Notes under the pieces: model-generated | Seen by the model: the letters and a program-made list of their open reading frames with translations, nothing else | Told to the model about the DNA's origin: nothing | Database searches by the model: none | From: Anaerolineaceae bacterium | GTDB taxonomy: Bacteria > Chloroflexota > Anaerolineae > Promineifilales > Promineifilaceae | Assembly (NCBI GenBank): GCA_002699125.1 | Contig: PABI01000119.1 | Location: 1 to 64,000 of the forward strand | Direction: 5' to 3' | Length of the DNA: 64,000 bases | Translations under genes and position numbers: made by a program | Shown here: piece after piece, positions 1,809 to 10,310 of the stretch | Position numbering within the stretch: the first letter of the stretch is position 1 | How the letters are laid out: every line of letters begins with the position of its first letter

Positions 1809-3986
1809 CTAGCTCCCAAAGAAGAATCGCCAGATACGCTCTTTGATGGCAATCGATGCATCTTCGTTGCTGTACGCTTCGCGCTGCTGGTGGATGTTTT
1901 GCATGTTTTTCCTCATAATCGCGGCCAATTCATCAACCAGGTCAGGTCTGGCCTGGATGATGGGTTGATATTGTCGCTTGCCAATTTCATAAACCGTAGC
2001 GCTCTTCACCGCCCGTACGGTTGCCGTGCGGGGGGCACCGGTTAACAAAGACACTTCACCCACCACATCTCCTCGACTTTTGATGTCGATTACCTTGTCC
2101 ACGCCGTCAGTCTGGCGAATCAACACTTCCAGGCTGCCGCCCCCTACTAAAAACAGGGAGGAACCGGCTCGCCCCTCAATGATGATTCGCTCCATCGGCC
2201 CAAGTACAATCTCGCGCGCTGTATTGGCCAGTTGGCGGCGTTCGTCTGCGGTAAGCATCCGAAAAAGTGGGACTTCTGAAAGCAGCTCAAAAATCAATTC
2301 AGAAGAAACATTGAATTCTGTGGGCAACTTTACAATTGCTTCCAACGATTCAGTATATCCATCCCGGCGCTGCAATCGTTCCACCTGTCCAGTTTGTTTT
2401 TCCATATAGGCCTGCAAAAGACTCACCTGATAGGGAACACATTCTCTGCCGGTATAGTCCATCAAGCTGTGGTGTTTGGCCCATTCGGCCACCTCATTCA
2501 TCGAAGCCCTGTATTGGTTGCAAGCGGAAGCAAACAAGCCATCTTGATCGCCAACAAAGTTGGTGATCTGTCTTAATGAGGTTCCGGTAAGAGCGGTTCT
2601 GCCCTTTTGATGCCACAGGATAATCTCTTTTAGCGTGTTGTCTAAAAATCCCAGTTCGGGGAAAGCATCATCAGTTTTGCGGAGTACGGCACGCTCTGCA
2701 TCGCGAAAAACTCTGTGCCATGTTTCCTGGGCGTTGTATTCGTTCTTTCCGGCCAGGGCGATGGCATGTTTCAAATCATCATGATGAACTTGCAAAAAGG
2801 CAAGCGTCGCCTTTTTCTTTTGCAGCAGGTTCAGGCTGCAAACCGGACCGGTTTGGGGAACACCAAATCGGGGGAACGATATTTCCCGCAGCTGCCACAC
2901 TTTGCGCCACCCTCTTGGATTTAGTCGCGTGCGAATCTCAGCGAAAAAAGGGTGCTGTTCGTAAGCCGCCCGCTCCGCCGGGCTGAGTAGATCGCCCACG
3001 TCTTCTTTGACGGCTTCAAAAATGCCAATACAGGTTAGTAATTCCAGGTAAAGCCCGACGCGCATCAACCATTTGGGATCGGTCAGGTGGCGTTTTTTGT
3101 GAACGATGTCTTCGACCAGGGCATCTGTATAAAGGTCTGCCTTGTCTGAACCAATCTTCAAAACCGGAAACCAGGGATGGAAAGATACGTCTAAAGGCGC
3201 TACTCCGGCTCTTTGTGCCTGTTGCTCTGTGTCCGGCACGAGTAACCGTTCCACAATGCGCTGATACAGGGAGCCATACCGCCGTGTATCACAAACGTCT
3301 AATAAGGTGTGGGCGGCGGCAACAGGCACATCGTCGTGTATCAGCCGAATGGAGACATGCACAATCTGCGTGAACAGATGGCCAAAGGTGAAAGGGTCTG
3401 TGCCATCGGTGGCCGCAGCCCGCACTGTGTGGTCCAGTTCATCCCAAGACCAGTCGATAGGCAAAAAATCCTTTTCGGGCGATAAAGCTAAAACCAGATT
3501 GTGCCCGGCAATATCGCGTAAAGAGACGGTTTGCAGAACGGGATTTTCGCCTGGCACTTTTTTGAAGATCATCGGTTCAATTGGGCGCTTATTCCAACCT
3601 GGAATGGGGTATGTGTGCTGAGAATTGTCTGTCCCGGTGAAAGAAAGGGTCACATCGAGACGGAATGAATCACATGCTTCAGGCGAGTAATGATCCAGCC
3701 CGTTTAGTTCAAACAGGATATATGTTTTGTTTGTTTCAGGATCGGGGAAATTGCATATCATGCTGGTGTTATCGCTGGAGCCGAGGCCGGGATGGGCCGC
3801 TTCATCAATGGGGCGGCGGCCAGTGATGAACGAGACAATGCGGCAGGTGGGCAATGGTTTTTCTGGCGCTTGCTGGGCTTTCTGGCAAAGGCTTTGGAGC
3901 AAGCTTGTTTTTTGTTCCAGGTTCATGCCAAGCACATCTGCATTAAGGAGGTGGAGGAATTGTTGGAGGAAATCAGCTTCGCGCAT
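1809..3986 (-). CDS. Large protein with C-terminal cyclic nucleotide-binding domain
   Basis: The last 140 residues or so form a cNMP-binding domain: a LSEVPLFRML entry helix, the beta-roll, then GDVVGEVSLLTGAPRTATVRA, which is the phosphate-binding cassette (G-E-x-L then R-T-A). It then ends in a short helical tail, without a DNA-binding or catalytic domain. The first 570 residues match nothing I recognise; they contain a beta-rich region (about 70-200) and a long helical region, with no membrane segments or signal peptide. It is probably a cytosolic sensor or scaffold. It is divergent from the sigma-factor gene. The gene contains no ACGGCCGT octamer despite its 2.2 kb length, unlike most genes in the window. 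Confidence 0.75.
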   Translation of the reverse strand: MREADFLQQFLHLLNADVLGMNLEQKTSLLQSLCQKAQQAPEKPLPTCRIVSFITGRRPIDEAAHPGLGSSDNTSMICNFPDPETNKTYILFELNGLDHYSPEACDSFRLDVTLSFTGTDNSQHTYPIPGWNKRPIEPMIFKKVPGENPVLQTVSLRDIAGHNLVLALSPEKDFLPIDWSWDELDHTVRAAATDGTDPFTFGHLFTQIVHVSIRLIHDDVPVAAAHTLLDVCDTRRYGSLYQRIVERLLVPDTEQQAQRAGVAPLDVSFHPWFPVLKIGSDKADLYTDALVEDIVHKKRHLTDPKWLMRVGLYLELLTCIGIFEAVKEDVGDLLSPAERAAYEQHPFFAEIRTRLNPRGWRKVWQLREISFPRFGVPQTGPVCSLNLLQKKKATLAFLQVHHDDLKHAIALAGKNEYNAQETWHRVFRDAERAVLRKTDDAFPELGFLDNTLKEIILWHQKGRTALTGTSLRQITNFVGDQDGLFASACNQYRASMNEVAEWAKHHSLMDYTGRECVPYQVSLLQAYMEKQTGQVERLQRRDGYTESLEAIVKLPTEFNVSSELIFELLSEVPLFRMLTADERRQLANTAREIVLGPMERIIIEGRAGSSLFLVGGGSLEVLIRQTDGVDKVIDIKSRGDVVGEVSLLTGAPRTATVRAVKSATVYEIGKRQYQPIIQARPDLVDELAAIMRKNMQNIHQQREAYSNEDASIAIKERIWRFFFGS

Positions 3987-4154
3987 GGTTCAGAGTCCTT
4001 ACCTGAAGAAATATAAGTCTGTTCGGTATCCACAGATTATGATCGGTTTGGCCTAATCGGTGCAACAGTTTTGGATTTTTGGTAACTTTTGCGGGTGAAT
4101 TTGGGACTCTGTAGATAGAAGGCCTTCAAAATGATGAAATCAGGTTTAGGGTAG

Positions 4155-6176
4155 ATGAGTGATTATGTAAAGCTGGTTACGGCCGTTCAAAATGGCGACC
4201 GTTCCGCATTTGGCCAGTTGGTGGTGCAGTTTCAGGACATGGCCTACTTCACAGCCTTCCAGTTCCTGGGCCAGCAGCAGCAGGCGCAGGACGCGACTCA
4301 GGAAGCATTCTGGGAAGCGTACCGCTGCCTGCCCAATCTGCGCCAACCGCAGGCGTTCCCCGCCTGGCTGCGGCGCATCGTGCTGAAGCAGTGCGACCGG
4401 CTGACGCGCGGCCAGCGGGCCACGCTGCTGGCGCTGGACGACGCCCCGGATTTGGCCAGCGACCTCACCGGTCCAGAAGCGATGCTGGAGCAGTTACAGC
4501 GTCAGCAGACGGTTCAGGCAGCGGTGAATAACCTGCCAGAGATTTACCGGGAAGTGACGCGATTGTTTTATTTGAACGGCCGTTCCTACCAAGAGATCGC
4601 CTATCAACTCAATCTACCCCTTTCGACTGTCAAGAAGCGTCTTTACGACGCGCGACAACAGCTCAAGGAGAATATGAGTCCCATGACAAGCAAAGAATAC
4701 CGTCCTTCACAAGACGACAAGTTTAGTAATTGCATCACCTTTTTTATTGCTCTGAAAAATAACGATCTGATCCAGGTTCGGCAGTTGGTGCGGCGCGATC
4801 CGGACCTGCTCGCCACAAAAACCGAATGGGGCGTGGCTTCCGACGGCTGGTATTGGCCGCTGGGGATCACGGCGCTGCACTGGGCCGCCAGCACGGGCAA
4901 TCAGCCGCTTGCTGCGCTGCTGTTGGAAGCCGGCGCAGACGTGAACATACTGGATCATAATGGCGGTACGCCGCTGCACCGTGCGGTTCACATGGGTCAG
5001 ACTGAACTGGTCCGCTGGCTGCTGGAAAATGGGGCGGATCCGGCCATCAAGTCCAATCATCAGCAAACGGATTTGCATACGGCCGTTATCCGCAACCGGC
5101 CAAAAATTGTGAAACTGCTTCTAGATTATGGCAGCGCCCCCGCCAGCCAGGACAGCCAGGGGCGCACCCCGCTCGACTGGGCGCAGCTCAAAGGGTTAAC
5201 GACTATTGTTGAGATGTTGGGCGATACGGCCAAAGAAAGCACGCCTCAAGTCCAGCCAAGCAAAACGAAGCATATTTGGGAAACGGGTCTCAAAATCATC
5301 GACCTGATTGCCCCGTTTAAGTGGGGCGGGCGCAACGGCATCTTCACCCCATTATCCGGCATTGGCATTGACGTGCTGGTGGGCGAATTGATTCAGCGCA
5401 TGGCCACTTATTATCAGGGCAAAACGGTGCAGCTTGTGCTGGAGCGGGGTGATTTTAACAGCCAAAGTCGGATGTGGCAGTGGCGCAATCACGGCGTTGA
5501 GGCCGATGTGGACTTGTTTGCTTGTGACATCAACGATTCGGCAGCACGCAAACAGCACCTGGCGGCCCAAGCGGTGAAGCAGGTCCAGGCGATTGCCGTT
5601 GATCAACCCGTTCTTTTCATTATCGACACCGGTATCGTACCCACCGAAGACGTTATGTCAATATTTGCGGCGCTGGATGAGCTGGCCAACGTGACAGTGC
5701 TTTATGACGGCATCGAGAGTATTGGCGCAGAACCGGCGGCATTGGCTGATTTGGATACGGCCGTTACCTTCGACCGCCTCCGTGCCGGGGAAGGCTGGTG
5801 GCCGGCTATCGACATGCTGCGCTCGTACAGCCATCATTATGAGGATGATGAACACAGAACTTTGGCGGAAACGGCCGTGCGCCTGGCCCGTCGCTACGCC
5901 GATTTGCACCTCATATACAAAAATCAAGGGATGGCAGGGTTTGACATGGCCTACTACGGCGAAGCGGAACGCCAGGCCATCATTCGTGGGCGGCGGCTGC
6001 ATGGCTTTTTGTCTCAACCGCTTACCGTGGCCGAGCCGTGGTCGGGCACACCCGCTGCCTACGTGCCGCTGCCAGAAACACTGGCTACGGTACAGGCCAT
6101 CCTCAACGGCGATTTAGATGAAGTGCCAGAAGAGGAGTTGATGATGATTGGTCAGTGGAGTCCGGTTTGGACGTAG
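4155..6176 (+). CDS. ECF sigma factor fused to ankyrin repeats and a degenerate F1-ATPase beta-like domain
   Basis: One uninterrupted 673-residue frame holds three parts. Residues 1-175 are an ECF sigma factor: region 2 has DATQEAFWEAYRCLPN and region 4 has LPEIYREVTRLFYLNGRSYQEIA plus the LPLSTVKKRL helix. Residues 190-360 are ankyrin repeats (GITALHWAAS, GGTPLHRAV, GRTPLDWAQ). Residues 372-673 follow the F1-ATPase beta subunit in order: TGLKIIDLIAPFKWGG, a P-loop position, VLFIIDTG, and a near-canonical end (RRLHGFLSQPLTVAEPWSG, then LPETLATVQAILNGD and MIGQW). The Walker A site reads LSGIGIDV where GGAGVGKT is expected, so GK[ST] is lost and ATP hydrolysis is unlikely. I infer a sigma factor with a built-in regulatory or partner-binding module. 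No anti-sigma gene is adjacent. Confidence 0.88.
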   Translation: MSDYVKLVTAVQNGDRSAFGQLVVQFQDMAYFTAFQFLGQQQQAQDATQEAFWEAYRCLPNLRQPQAFPAWLRRIVLKQCDRLTRGQRATLLALDDAPDLASDLTGPEAMLEQLQRQQTVQAAVNNLPEIYREVTRLFYLNGRSYQEIAYQLNLPLSTVKKRLYDARQQLKENMSPMTSKEYRPSQDDKFSNCITFFIALKNNDLIQVRQLVRRDPDLLATKTEWGVASDGWYWPLGITALHWAASTGNQPLAALLLEAGADVNILDHNGGTPLHRAVHMGQTELVRWLLENGADPAIKSNHQQTDLHTAVIRNRPKIVKLLLDYGSAPASQDSQGRTPLDWAQLKGLTTIVEMLGDTAKESTPQVQPSKTKHIWETGLKIIDLIAPFKWGGRNGIFTPLSGIGIDVLVGELIQRMATYYQGKTVQLVLERGDFNSQSRMWQWRNHGVEADVDLFACDINDSAARKQHLAAQAVKQVQAIAVDQPVLFIIDTGIVPTEDVMSIFAALDELANVTVLYDGIESIGAEPAALADLDTAVTFDRLRAGEGWWPAIDMLRSYSHHYEDDEHRTLAETAVRLARRYADLHLIYKNQGMAGFDMAYYGEAERQAIIRGRRLHGFLSQPLTVAEPWSGTPAAYVPLPETLATVQAILNGDLDEVPEEELMMIGQWSPVWT

Positions 6177-6282: not shown

Positions 6283-8238
6283 TTACTTCATCGGCAGCAG
6301 CACAAACTCTGCACTATCCCCCGTGCGCAGATTTTGGCATGGGCCGGGGGTGCAGGTGGTGGGGTCGAACCAGCCTAGGCGCAGTTGGGTAGCTTCGTCA
6401 AGCGCGGGTGGGCTGAGGTGCTGCAAAATCAGATCGCCGGGCTGCCAGTGGGGGAACCAGAGGCCCTGCGGGTCGGGGGCGTCGAAGCGGTAAGTTTCGG
6501 CCAGCTGGCTTCCATCGGCGGCGAGGCTGTGGATGAATTGTTGGCGCGGGGCGGGGGTTACGGCCGTTACCCGCCACACCAACAGCAATTCCCCATCTTC
6601 AGCCCATTCATACCCCAACAACTTCAATTCCTCACCAAACTGAACATCCATCGTGTTTGCCAGTTGGATGGATGGTTGGTCGGGTAAAGTGTAGCTGGTG
6701 AAACGGCCGCTTGCCTCCACATCTGCCCCCCAACCCTGTAACTTTGCTTCCCAAAATGGATCGAGGGGGAGGTCAGACGGCCGTAACACCACCGCCGGCT
6801 CCGCATCGGGCAAAATAAGCGTGCCTTCTTGTGGGTCGAAGTGGCTTAGTGGTAGGCCATCGTTTTGGCGAAGTAGGGTCATCGTGGGGCCGTCCATCGT
6901 GCTGGGTGACCAGCCGGCAATGGACGCGGCGTTGAGGTCGGAACGGCCGTCCAAATAGTCCGTCATTTCCGTAAACGCCGCCTGCCATACAAACGGCACG
7001 TCGCCGCCGTTGGGCCACGTCTGGAAGATCAAAACAGATGTTCGGGCAGCATAAAATAGCAGCAGCGTCAAGACCAATATTTTGGAACTTCTTGTGGATA
7101 AGTCGTGGATAACTGTGGATAACTGCCCTAAACTGTGCATAACCAGGGCAGGAACCACGGTAAGTACAGGTAAAATCAAGATGCTGCGAATGTGGCTGGG
7201 GGCATTAATCGTAACAAGACTGGGCGTAACGGCCGTGCCCAACCAAAGCAGCAAAAAAGCATAGCGCGGCTGCCGCCAGCGCCACAGGCAAAGCAGCACC
7301 CCGGCATAAAATAGCAGCGCCACAACGGGCTCAAACACCGGGGCCGATGGCACCCCTTCGCGCCACAGCGGATCGCCAATAAAGCCAAACATTCCTAGCA
7401 ATTTGAGACCGTTGCTCAGCACCGGCTGAAAGTCGCCTGCCCGCAGCGCTTGCAGCGGTGCATCCACCTCGCTCAAACGAAATTCTGCACCAGGATTGGT
7501 TTGCAAGTAGATAACCAGCGGCGCAGCCACAGCGGCAAACAGCAGCACAAACAGCACAATCCCCCGCCACCGCTGCTTGAACGCACGCCAATGAAAAATA
7601 GCCAGATACGCCAGCCACAGTCCGTAAAAAATAGGCACGGCGCGGGCGGCCATGTAGGTGTGCAGGCTGAGACCGGCAAAAATGCCTGACAAGGTGAAGG
7701 GAGCGAATGACCGGGTGACAAGGTGACCGGGTGACAAGGTGACATTGTCAGGCGGGGTCACGTTGTCATCCCACGCTTTCCACCAAAAATAGGCAGATAA
7801 TCCGGCAACTAATGGTAAGGAAATGGCGCGCAGGGCGAGACGGCCGTAAAAAACAGGCCAAAACAACACCGCCAACAATCCAGCAGCGGTAAGTGCTACA
7901 TTTCTACCAAACAGCTTCCGCGCCAGGGCAAAGGTGACGGCCACACCCAGCAAACCGCAAAAGGCGGCAGGCAGGCGCAGCGCCAAAACATTATCGCCAA
8001 GCAGGGCAACAAAGCCGGATTGCAGGTAATGGAAGCCCGCCTCATGCCCGTAAGCGCGGGTGAAGTAAATGGCGTGTTCGCCCGCCAAAATAGAGCGGTC
8101 GATGAGCCAGTTGGCCACCTCGTCGTGGGTGATGCCGGGCGGAGAGAGGTTGTTCAACCCAACCAGTCGCAGCGCAGCGCCAGCGAGCAGCAGAAAAGTC
8201 ATGATCCAAACGGGCTGGCGTTTTGAAGTGAAATTCAT
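6283..8238 (-). CDS. GT-C family membrane glycosyltransferase (PMT/ArnT/GT39-like)
   Basis: Integral membrane enzyme expected to transfer a sugar from a polyprenyl-phosphate donor on the outer face of the membrane. After a first membrane helix (about 10-28) the first external loop carries GITHDEVANW, matching the conserved acidic Asp-Glu of the PMT/ArnT superfamily. About ten further hydrophobic segments follow to residue 420, then a soluble C-terminal domain of roughly 230 residues. The acceptor is unknown. The start overlaps the end of the upstream permease gene by 4 nt, suggesting co-transcription, though the functions look unrelated. Codons for residues 156-180 contain a tandem microrepeat (unit GGTGACAAGGTGACC). 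Confidence 0.8.
   Translation of the reverse strand: MNFTSKRQPVWIMTFLLLAGAALRLVGLNNLSPPGITHDEVANWLIDRSILAGEHAIYFTRAYGHEAGFHYLQSGFVALLGDNVLALRLPAAFCGLLGVAVTFALARKLFGRNVALTAAGLLAVLFWPVFYGRLALRAISLPLVAGLSAYFWWKAWDDNVTPPDNVTLSPGHLVTRSFAPFTLSGIFAGLSLHTYMAARAVPIFYGLWLAYLAIFHWRAFKQRWRGIVLFVLLFAAVAAPLVIYLQTNPGAEFRLSEVDAPLQALRAGDFQPVLSNGLKLLGMFGFIGDPLWREGVPSAPVFEPVVALLFYAGVLLCLWRWRQPRYAFLLLWLGTAVTPSLVTINAPSHIRSILILPVLTVVPALVMHSLGQLSTVIHDLSTRSSKILVLTLLLFYAARTSVLIFQTWPNGGDVPFVWQAAFTEMTDYLDGRSDLNAASIAGWSPSTMDGPTMTLLRQNDGLPLSHFDPQEGTLILPDAEPAVVLRPSDLPLDPFWEAKLQGWGADVEASGRFTSYTLPDQPSIQLANTMDVQFGEELKLLGYEWAEDGELLLVWRVTAVTPAPRQQFIHSLAADGSQLAETYRFDAPDPQGLWFPHWQPGDLILQHLSPPALDEATQLRLGWFDPTTCTPGPCQNLRTGDSAEFVLLPMK
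7704..7748. repeat. Tandem microrepeat inside the GT-C glycosyltransferase gene
   Basis: Imperfect tandem copies built on TGACCGGGTGACAAGG, followed by an inverted-looking GACATTGTC stretch. On the coding strand they encode an Asn/Pro/Gly/His-rich loop between predicted membrane helices. This is a low-complexity insertion tolerated in frame. Confidence 0.7.
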
Positions 8239-10310
8239 GTTTTTACCGAGCTGCGCGCCGCCGTGGCCAGCAGCAACCGGTCAATCACCACCGCCAGAAT
8301 GACAATGGCCAGCCCCGCCTCAATGCCCTGACCCAGCTGATTGCGCGTCAGTCCTTCAACAGCTTCCAATCCCAATCCGGCCCCGCCGACCATCCCGGCA
8401 ATGACCACCATCGCCAAAACCATCATCACCGTCTGGTTGATGCCGGTCATGATCGAGGGCAGGGCCAGCGGCAGCTGGACCTTGGCTAAAAGCTGCCAGC
8501 TTGTGGAGCCAAACGCCTGGGCGGCTTCCACCGCCTCCGGGCTGGCCTGGCGGATGCCCAAATTGGTCAGGCGAATCGCCGGCGGCAGCGCGTACAGCAC
8601 CGAGGCCATGATCCCCGGCACGCGCCCGACGTTGAACAACATCACCACCGGCACCAGGTAGACGAAAGCAGGGATGGTTTGCAAAAAGTCGAGGATGGGG
8701 CGCAAAACGGCCGCAACCATATCACGCTTTGCCGCCCAGATACCCAGTGGAATGGCAATCAACAGCGAGAAGAAAACGGCCACAATCACCTGGCTCAGGG
8801 TCACCATCGCCAATTCCCACATTCCTAATAAACCGATGGCAAAGAGGACGGCCGTTCCGCCCAACGCCAGGCGCCAGCCCGAGACCCAATAACCCAGCAG
8901 CCCCACCAGCAAAATGATTACCGGCCAGGAAAGCTGCTCTTGCAGCAGCCGGTCCAGCGGATCGAGCAGTTGGATGATGATGAAGTTGCTCAACGGCCGT
9001 GTGCCCAGCAAAAACGGCCCCACCTGCTGCTCAAACAAATTGTCGCGCATCCAGATGACGGCCGTATCCACCGGCCCTTGAATGCCCCACCGCCAACTCT
9101 CAGGAAAAGTGATCCAACCCAGCGCCCGCCCCAGCCAGAGCAGCCCGCCCAGCAGCAGCAGGCTGGCCAACAGGTAGGCGTGTCGCCGCACAAAATCCGA
9201 GCGGCTGAGCCGGGCGAATCGGGCCAAGAAACGGCCGCCGCCTACGTACAGCCAATCCAGCCCTTCTTCCAATCGAGCAATGAGCCGGTTGGCTTGCCAG
9301 GATTTGGGGAAAAGACGGCCGTTTTCCACCATTGCTCCTGTTCGATTGCGCACCGAAAACGCCTCGCTCAGCCGGTCCAGCAGCACTGCTAGAAAGACAA
9401 TCGCCAGGCCCGCTTCCAGCGCCAATCCCACGCGAATGCTGCGCAGTGCATCCAGCACCACTTTGCCCAGGCCGCCCGCGCCAATCAGCGCCGCAATCAC
9501 CACGATGCCCAACGCCATCATGATCGTCTGGTTGACCCCGGCCATGATAGTGGGTAGGGCCAGCGGCAGCTGCACCTTAAACAAGATCTGGCGCGGCGTG
9601 GCCCCAAACGAGCGGGCCGCTTCAACCGTTTCTACCGGCACCTCGCGGATACCCAGGGTTGTCAGCCGGATGGCCGGCGGCAGGGCGTAGATGACGGTGG
9701 CAATAGCGCTGGGCACGCGAGCATAGCCAAAAAAGAGCACGATAGGCAGCAGGTAGACAAACGAGGGCATCGTCTGCATCGCGTCGAGGAACGGCCGTAA
9801 TCCCTGCTCCACCTTTTCATTACGCGCCGCCCAAATCCCCAGCGGAATGCCAATCAGCAACGAAATGAGGACGGCAACGGTCATGAGCGCCAGGGTTTGC
9901 ATACTTTCCGGCCACAAGCCGACCAATCCCATGAAAAGCAGGCAAAAGGTAGCCAGCAGTGCCAGGCGCAGGTTGGCCGCTTTTTGCGCCAGCAGAAAAA
10001 CCGCTGCCAGCAGCACCGGCCAGGGCAGCCAGAGCAAAAATGTTTCCACGCGGCGCAGGGCAAAATCTAAGCCACCGCTGATGGGATCAAAAAAGTAAAG
10101 AAAAATGGGGTGGATGGTCTGGTTGCGATTGGCCCACTGTTTGAAAGCGTCGATAGGTTGCCGAAGCTGCACGTCCCACGCTTCGGGGAAGAGGCTGAGG
10201 TCGGTCAGCCAATGGTGGACCAACAGCAGTGCCGCCAGCAAAACGAGACCGAGGAGAAGATACGGCCGTTTCCCACCTTGTCTCATTCTTCCCTCAACCT
10301 GCATAACCAC
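8235..10310 (-). CDS. proW: Glycine betaine/proline-type ABC transporter, two permease domains fused
   Basis: Membrane subunit of an osmoprotectant-type (ProU/OpuA) importer. The 691 residues hold two homologous ProW-like halves: each has an N-terminal hydrophobic portion and then a core of about five helices with the EAA-type loop (EAARSFGATPRQILFKVQLPLA near 230; EAAQAFGSTSWQLLAKVQLPLA near 575). The usual ProW has one such core in 280-350 residues, so this is a tandem fusion that could supply both halves of the channel. The ATPase gene lies 103 nt upstream on the same strand. No periplasmic binding protein is encoded nearby, and no binding domain is fused. Confidence 0.9.
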   Translation of the reverse strand: MVMQVEGRMRQGGKRPYLLLGLVLLAALLLVHHWLTDLSLFPEAWDVQLRQPIDAFKQWANRNQTIHPIFLYFFDPISGGLDFALRRVETFLLWLPWPVLLAAVFLLAQKAANLRLALLATFCLLFMGLVGLWPESMQTLALMTVAVLISLLIGIPLGIWAARNEKVEQGLRPFLDAMQTMPSFVYLLPIVLFFGYARVPSAIATVIYALPPAIRLTTLGIREVPVETVEAARSFGATPRQILFKVQLPLALPTIMAGVNQTIMMALGIVVIAALIGAGGLGKVVLDALRSIRVGLALEAGLAIVFLAVLLDRLSEAFSVRNRTGAMVENGRLFPKSWQANRLIARLEEGLDWLYVGGGRFLARFARLSRSDFVRRHAYLLASLLLLGGLLWLGRALGWITFPESWRWGIQGPVDTAVIWMRDNLFEQQVGPFLLGTRPLSNFIIIQLLDPLDRLLQEQLSWPVIILLVGLLGYWVSGWRLALGGTAVLFAIGLLGMWELAMVTLSQVIVAVFFSLLIAIPLGIWAAKRDMVAAVLRPILDFLQTIPAFVYLVPVVMLFNVGRVPGIMASVLYALPPAIRLTNLGIRQASPEAVEAAQAFGSTSWQLLAKVQLPLALPSIMTGINQTVMMVLAMVVIAGMVGGAGLGLEAVEGLTRNQLGQGIEAGLAIVILAVVIDRLLLATAARSSVKT

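Follow-up and report, generated by a model that had tools for sequence, protein, structure and literature searches.

An ECF sigma factor joined through ankyrin repeats to a decayed F1-ATPase beta domain, a candidate built-in regulator

ECF sigma factors consist of sigma regions 2 and 4 only, without sigma 3, and members with regulatory tails are already known. Among the closest described systems, the ECF41 sigma factors (Ecf41Bli, M. tuberculosis SigJ) are characterized by a large regulatory extension fused at the C-terminus, no anti-sigma gene, a highly conserved promoter, and very few targets, essentially one target transcript (PMC3426412). The ECF42 and ECF57 groups carry a repeat-protein tail, TPR or WD40-like, that is thought to work by protein contact, as the ECF42 tails do (PMC8999054).

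The protein described here, encoded in a 64,000-nucleotide stretch of a draft Anaerolineaceae genome (the window), resembles both groups and differs from each in its tail. Whereas the ECF41 extension is SnoaL-like and without ankyrin, and the ECF42 and ECF57 tails are of TPR or WD40 type, the window protein carries ankyrin repeats and then a pseudo-ATPase domain like F1 beta. The ECF41 target is a neighbouring COE gene, whereas here the sole strict promoter match is that of the sigma gene itself. Relatives of F1 beta outside ATP synthesis are also found among the F1-like paralogues (the Mycoplasma G1-ATPase/MMOB1670 and MSC_0618 families, FliI, and SctN), whose names mark them as ATPases that drive motility or export; none of them is known to be linked with a sigma factor, and their profiles scored behind AtpD in our comparison. 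We know of no ECF sigma factor with a rotary-ATPase subunit as its regulator, nothing relevant on ankyrin- or F1beta-bearing sigma factors was encountered in the literature searched, and so far as our searches went, a regulator derived from F1 beta is new. We regard it as reasonably probable that the window protein is an autoregulated ECF sigma factor with a built-in, catalytically dead regulator derived from F1 beta and joined to it via the ankyrin repeats.

Three-part architecture and homology to F1 beta

The gene is a 673-codon open reading frame at 4155-6176 (+), running from ATG to stop with no internal stop. Pfam and NCBIfam assigned the ECF sigma part to residues 1-175, in which Sigma-70 region 2 (residues 22-88; 4218-4418, +; PF04542, Sigma70_r2, E=2e-9) and region 4 (residues 119-170; 4509-4664, +; PF08281, Sigma70_r4_2, E=4e-13) were both found over the cut-off, as was TIGR02937 (7e-23), consistent with an ECF sigma factor. 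Ankyrin repeats follow at about residues 197-352 (4743-5210, +; PF12796, E=3e-26, and related families), and the pseudo-F1beta domain occupies about residues 372-668 (5268-6158, +; TIGR01039, 5.7e-33; hhalign probability 100). No SnoaL, TPR, or WD40 extension of the ECF41, ECF42, or ECF57 type was found in the window protein, the tail being made up of the ankyrin and F1beta-like parts. The continuous three-part frame proposed in a preliminary description of this DNA was borne out by the open reading frame and these matches.

The same description had likened the C-terminal part to ATP synthase beta, and profile searches agreed with it. Residues 370-673 matched the NCBIfam atpD profile best (TIGR01039, E=5.7e-33), with FliI second (5e-7) and no match to the F1 alpha subunit at E below 0.1 among the NCBIfam profiles. 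Against PDB sequences, F1 beta chains were matched at values down to 3e-27 and type III secretion ATPases only at ~0.004. A profile-profile comparison (hhalign) of eight orthologous domains with thirty F1 beta sequences of the same class gave a probability of 100 and E=3.4e-49 (for that single comparison) over 301 aligned columns, corresponding to beta ~128-458, and an 11-member pseudo-domain profile retrieved F1 beta in the PDB at 5e-82. PF00006 reached 20.6 bits in the window protein, below its own cut-off of 29.5, and was above its cut-off in the orthologues L026, L028, and L080. These matches identify the C-terminal part as a specifically beta-like F1-ATPase homologue.

The likeness to AtpD lies in the homologous nucleotide-binding and C-terminal domains, which aligned end to end with the window domain. 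In contrast to AtpD, the pseudo-F1beta domain is attached to a sigma factor and lacks the N-terminal beta-barrel (crown) domain, the alignment beginning at beta ~128; about 30 residues after Walker B are deleted, and the DELSEED motif is also gone. The beta-subunit order noted previously therefore holds for the remaining parts and not for the whole subunit. A 'GR..(N/D)..G.P(I/L)DK' motif, which precedes the nucleotide-binding domain in F1 beta, was retained in four of the orthologues (L012, L013, L026, and L027). Structure predictions were of low confidence, with a pLDDT of 52.5 for the whole chain (3 sequences) and 58.4 for the domain (5 sequences); no interdomain contacts were demonstrated in these low-pLDDT models, and the Foldseek match of the predicted domain to F1 beta is partly circular, F1 beta having been in the alignment.

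Fused, split, and outlying relatives

Nine further genomes, belonging to three families, carry the three-domain fusion, with identities of about 36-61%: five in the window's own family (L009, L010, L011, L012, and L013; L010 and L023 are the same protein), three in a second (L026, L027, and L080), and one in a third (L028, a copy 5'-truncated at the contig end). In three genomes from two other classes (L074, L075, and L104), the F1beta-like part has a gene of its own, which lies next after the ECF-Ank gene. In L074 and L075 the two frames overlap at their stop and start codons, with a Shine-Dalgarno-like stretch ahead (GGAGGAAAGTAATG; AGGAACTATCATGA), an arrangement that is typical of translational coupling. 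When two functions share a single protein in one lineage and are encoded side by side in another, this is a classic sign of a working partnership. Since the pairing recurs in both forms, as one protein or as neighbour genes that overlap, the dead ATPase probably acts as the switch of the sigma factor.

In a codon comparison of the sister pair L026/L027, the sigma and ankyrin parts each had a dN/dS of about 0.15, and pseudo-F1beta one of about 0.13. By this measure the dead domain is under purifying selection as strong as that on the sigma part, which argues that it has been kept by selection. Over 700 different genomes from the phylum were surveyed, and 13 of them had the unit, fused or split; it is thus rare and patchy. 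This distribution, together with a host assembly that is a draft with 8.4% estimated contamination, would suit a functionless gene, either decaying or chimeric, or else a fault of the assembly. The low dN/dS and the preserved upstream motif speak against that account, and it is refuted by the open fusion in nine further independent assemblies, which also rule out the sequence error that the preliminary description had named as a possible source of the fusion.

We further assessed whether the ankyrin arm could be the real sensor or regulator, with the F1beta part merely a spacer or dimerisation unit. ECF-Ank proteins without F1beta are encoded in the same class (L029-L036, L040, and L042), so that ankyrin alone can serve an ECF sigma factor. 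In three genomes, however, the F1beta-like part is a separate gene product beside ECF-Ank, its purifying selection is as strong as that of sigma, and one relative has F1beta without ankyrin, so we judge this explanation improbable. The relative concerned lies on a soil-metagenome contig (L107:449-2095) that is filed as viral, yet contains peptide-ABC genes; its ECF part is fused directly to pseudo-F1beta, which has a beta-barrel remnant.

A more distant member was encountered on a Paenibacillus cellulositrophicus megaplasmid (L105:5995-7053; NZ_CP045296.1 540575-541633), where WP_152404100.1, annotated as hypothetical, has a C-terminal pseudo-F1beta part in which Walker A has become NMGQL and a comparable stretch is deleted. 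Its N-terminal region gave weak matches to Cro/C1-type HTH domains (E about 0.002, below cut-off). In the domain tree, all fourteen pseudo domains were set apart by one branch (99/99) adjoining F1 beta; the L107 and Paenibacillus domains drew a long-branch warning. In the unrooted sigma tree, one branch (93/90) set apart the nine fused copies and another (97/89) the three split copies. The separate-gene form is presumed to be ancestral. Tentatively, pseudo-F1beta might be a general signalling domain of transcription regulators, a family in at least two phyla. It would act as a sensor without hydrolysis, perhaps for adenine nucleotides, and would serve both a Cro/C1-like regulator and ECF sigma factors, the latter either fused or in trans.

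Four further candidates (L076, L081, L102, and L106) were rejected as ordinary or alternate F1 beta with GGAGVGKT intact; the other matches of the same search were classed likewise from score and length. Viral contigs scanned with the query P0001 yielded no relative. It was also noted that one genus of the class (L029, L030, L032-L036, and L038) possesses ECF proteins of about 560 aa in all, with long ankyrin arrays and no F1beta. Judged by eye, another ECF tail in the class resembles a nucleotidyltransferase (L039:131-1327, -), and two others resemble TPR-type repeats (L031:1498-3519 and L037:1465-3543).

State of the nucleotide site

The catalytic residues were compared among 15 pseudo domains, with sites given in bovine beta numbering anchored on the motifs. 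In the window protein, Walker A is remodelled at residues 398-407 (5346-5375, +), which read TPLSGIGIDV in place of GG-AGVGKTV, so that GGAGVGKT has become TPLSGIGID with neither Lys nor Ser/Thr. Lys162 and Thr163 occur together in none of the fifteen; Lys162 alone is kept in L028, L074, L075, and L104, Thr163 alone in L107, and Asp replaces Thr163 throughout the window's own clade (window, L009, L010, and L011). The loss of GK[ST] reported earlier was therefore confirmed. The catalytic Glu188 is kept only in the three split proteins and is lost in all fused members, Arg189 and Arg260 are kept in no pseudo domain, and all three are altered in the window protein. Walker B Asp256 is kept in about half of the pseudo domains. 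On accepted F1 chemistry, hydrolysis is therefore ruled out.

The adenine side of the pocket appeared better preserved. Trp549 (5799-5801, +) stands at the adenine-stacking position of bovine beta Tyr345, where 14/15 pseudo domains have W or Y (His in L028), and Trp629 (6039-6041, +) stands at the Phe424 position of the adenine pocket, aromatic in 12/15. As read from these residues, the phosphate site of the fused form is decayed while its adenine-stacking position remains aromatic, and binding of an adenine compound by pseudo-F1beta is possible. The family offers a pseudoenzyme of which several stages survive: a separate, less decayed form, a fused form, and a fused form that is fully decayed.

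The most attractive special case of the built-in regulator is an energy-state sensor, in which the pocket would hold an adenine compound (ATP, ADP, or another) that is not hydrolysed, and its occupancy would set sigma activity. The aromatic residues at both adenine positions are consistent with it, as are the absence of the Lys162-Thr163 pair throughout and the retention of Lys162, Glu188, and Asp256 together in the three separate-gene proteins. The window's clade, however, has Asp for the phosphate-binding Thr163 and no Lys, and the YPAxDP motif around the stacking position may persist for folding alone, L028 having His there; we consider the sensor rather unlikely, and less likely than the general regulator of which it is a case. 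Continued binding of an adenine compound in the pocket would tie transcription initiation directly to the energy currency of the cell.

The preliminary description had also suggested an F1-interacting module. On such an account, the domain would insert into or dock on ATP synthase, and a change in how F1 is assembled or turns over would free the sigma factor; this accords with homology to beta specifically and with a host genome that encodes an ordinary F1. This suggestion is weakened because the crown domain, DELSEED, and the post-Walker B stretch are missing and the catalytic-interface residues (Glu188, Arg189, and Arg260) are gone in the fused proteins, which makes docking very unlikely. 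The host genome, an 8.05-Mb draft that is 96% complete, encodes ordinary F1 alpha and beta plus V-type A and B subunits, and the window gene is therefore an additional paralogue. This assembly, G000, holds both F-type and V-type ATPase genes (contigs C73 and C150; L002, L003, L001, and L004); because of the contamination estimate, one of the two sets may be foreign.

Promoter motif, neighbourhood, and proposed control

A bipartite promoter-like motif, GTAACT-N15-GGGACT, with ECF-type -35 and -10 halves, was found at 4082-4108 (+), 46 nt upstream of the start codon. All 12 copies of the unit having upstream sequence carry GTA(A/T)C(C/T)-N15-GG(G/T)(A/T)CT with a constant spacer of 15 nt. The motif was absent upstream of the fetched ECF-Ank relatives without F1beta and of L107. 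ECF promoters have AAC in the -35 and usually CGT in the -10 (PMC3426412); the AAC is present here, whereas the -10 half GGGACT differs. A scan of the window for a GAAAC-GTC pattern gave hits at chance level.

The strict form, GTAACY-N15-GGGWCT, had one match in the 8.05-Mb host genome, ahead of the window gene, compared with 5 for the reversed-pattern control, and in thirteen genomes the remaining motif matches were generally at or below the control level. The simplest reading is that the sigma gene is autoregulated, with few or no other strict targets, position and conservation being what ties the motif to the predicted sigma specificity. Of the sigma regulon envisaged in the preliminary description, the motif scan thus made the own promoter stand out and named no other target. 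That this promoter is the only strict match in 8 Mb offers a clean experimental handle. It was also noted that an exact 10-bp palindrome, GAAGGCCTTC, lies just 3' of the -10 element (4118-4127) at the same place in the window, L009, L026, and L080, and that a different one, TAGACGTCTA, occurs at the equivalent place in L012 and L013, the others having none. The palindrome is possibly an operator or a start-site element.

For ten copies, a region of about 11-18 kb around each was compared with the window, and no conserved neighbours were found, only the unit itself being common across lineages; the exceptions were ABC ATPases and a few genes common to pairs of loci. No conserved anti-sigma gene was found beside the unit in the same comparison, which leaves the protein itself, its operon partner, or some other part of the cell as the source of control. 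Control of sigma by the C-terminal part, as first proposed, gains support from this result, the recurring fusion or adjacency, and the purifying selection.

For the built-in regulator that we favour, the pseudo-F1beta domain and ankyrin arm would set sigma activity via contact with sigma regions 2 and 4. The dead domain may keep these regions away from the polymerase or, alternatively, in a competent state; the state would flip once a ligand occupied what was the nucleotide pocket or a partner bound to the ankyrin surface. Active sigma would then transcribe its own gene as a positive-feedback switch, autoregulation sharpening the response. The regulatory role is suggested by the exchange between fusion and operon, by selection, and by analogy with ECF41 (PMC3426412) and ECF42 (PMC8999054).

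Two further genes of the window were recorded. The product of the divergent neighbour (1809-3986, -) is 725 aa long; a cyclic-nucleotide-binding domain lies at its C-terminus, and about 590 residues have no Pfam match. An ABC permease of 691 aa (8235-10310, -) has two tandem BPD_transp_1 domains and adjoins its ABC ATPase gene.
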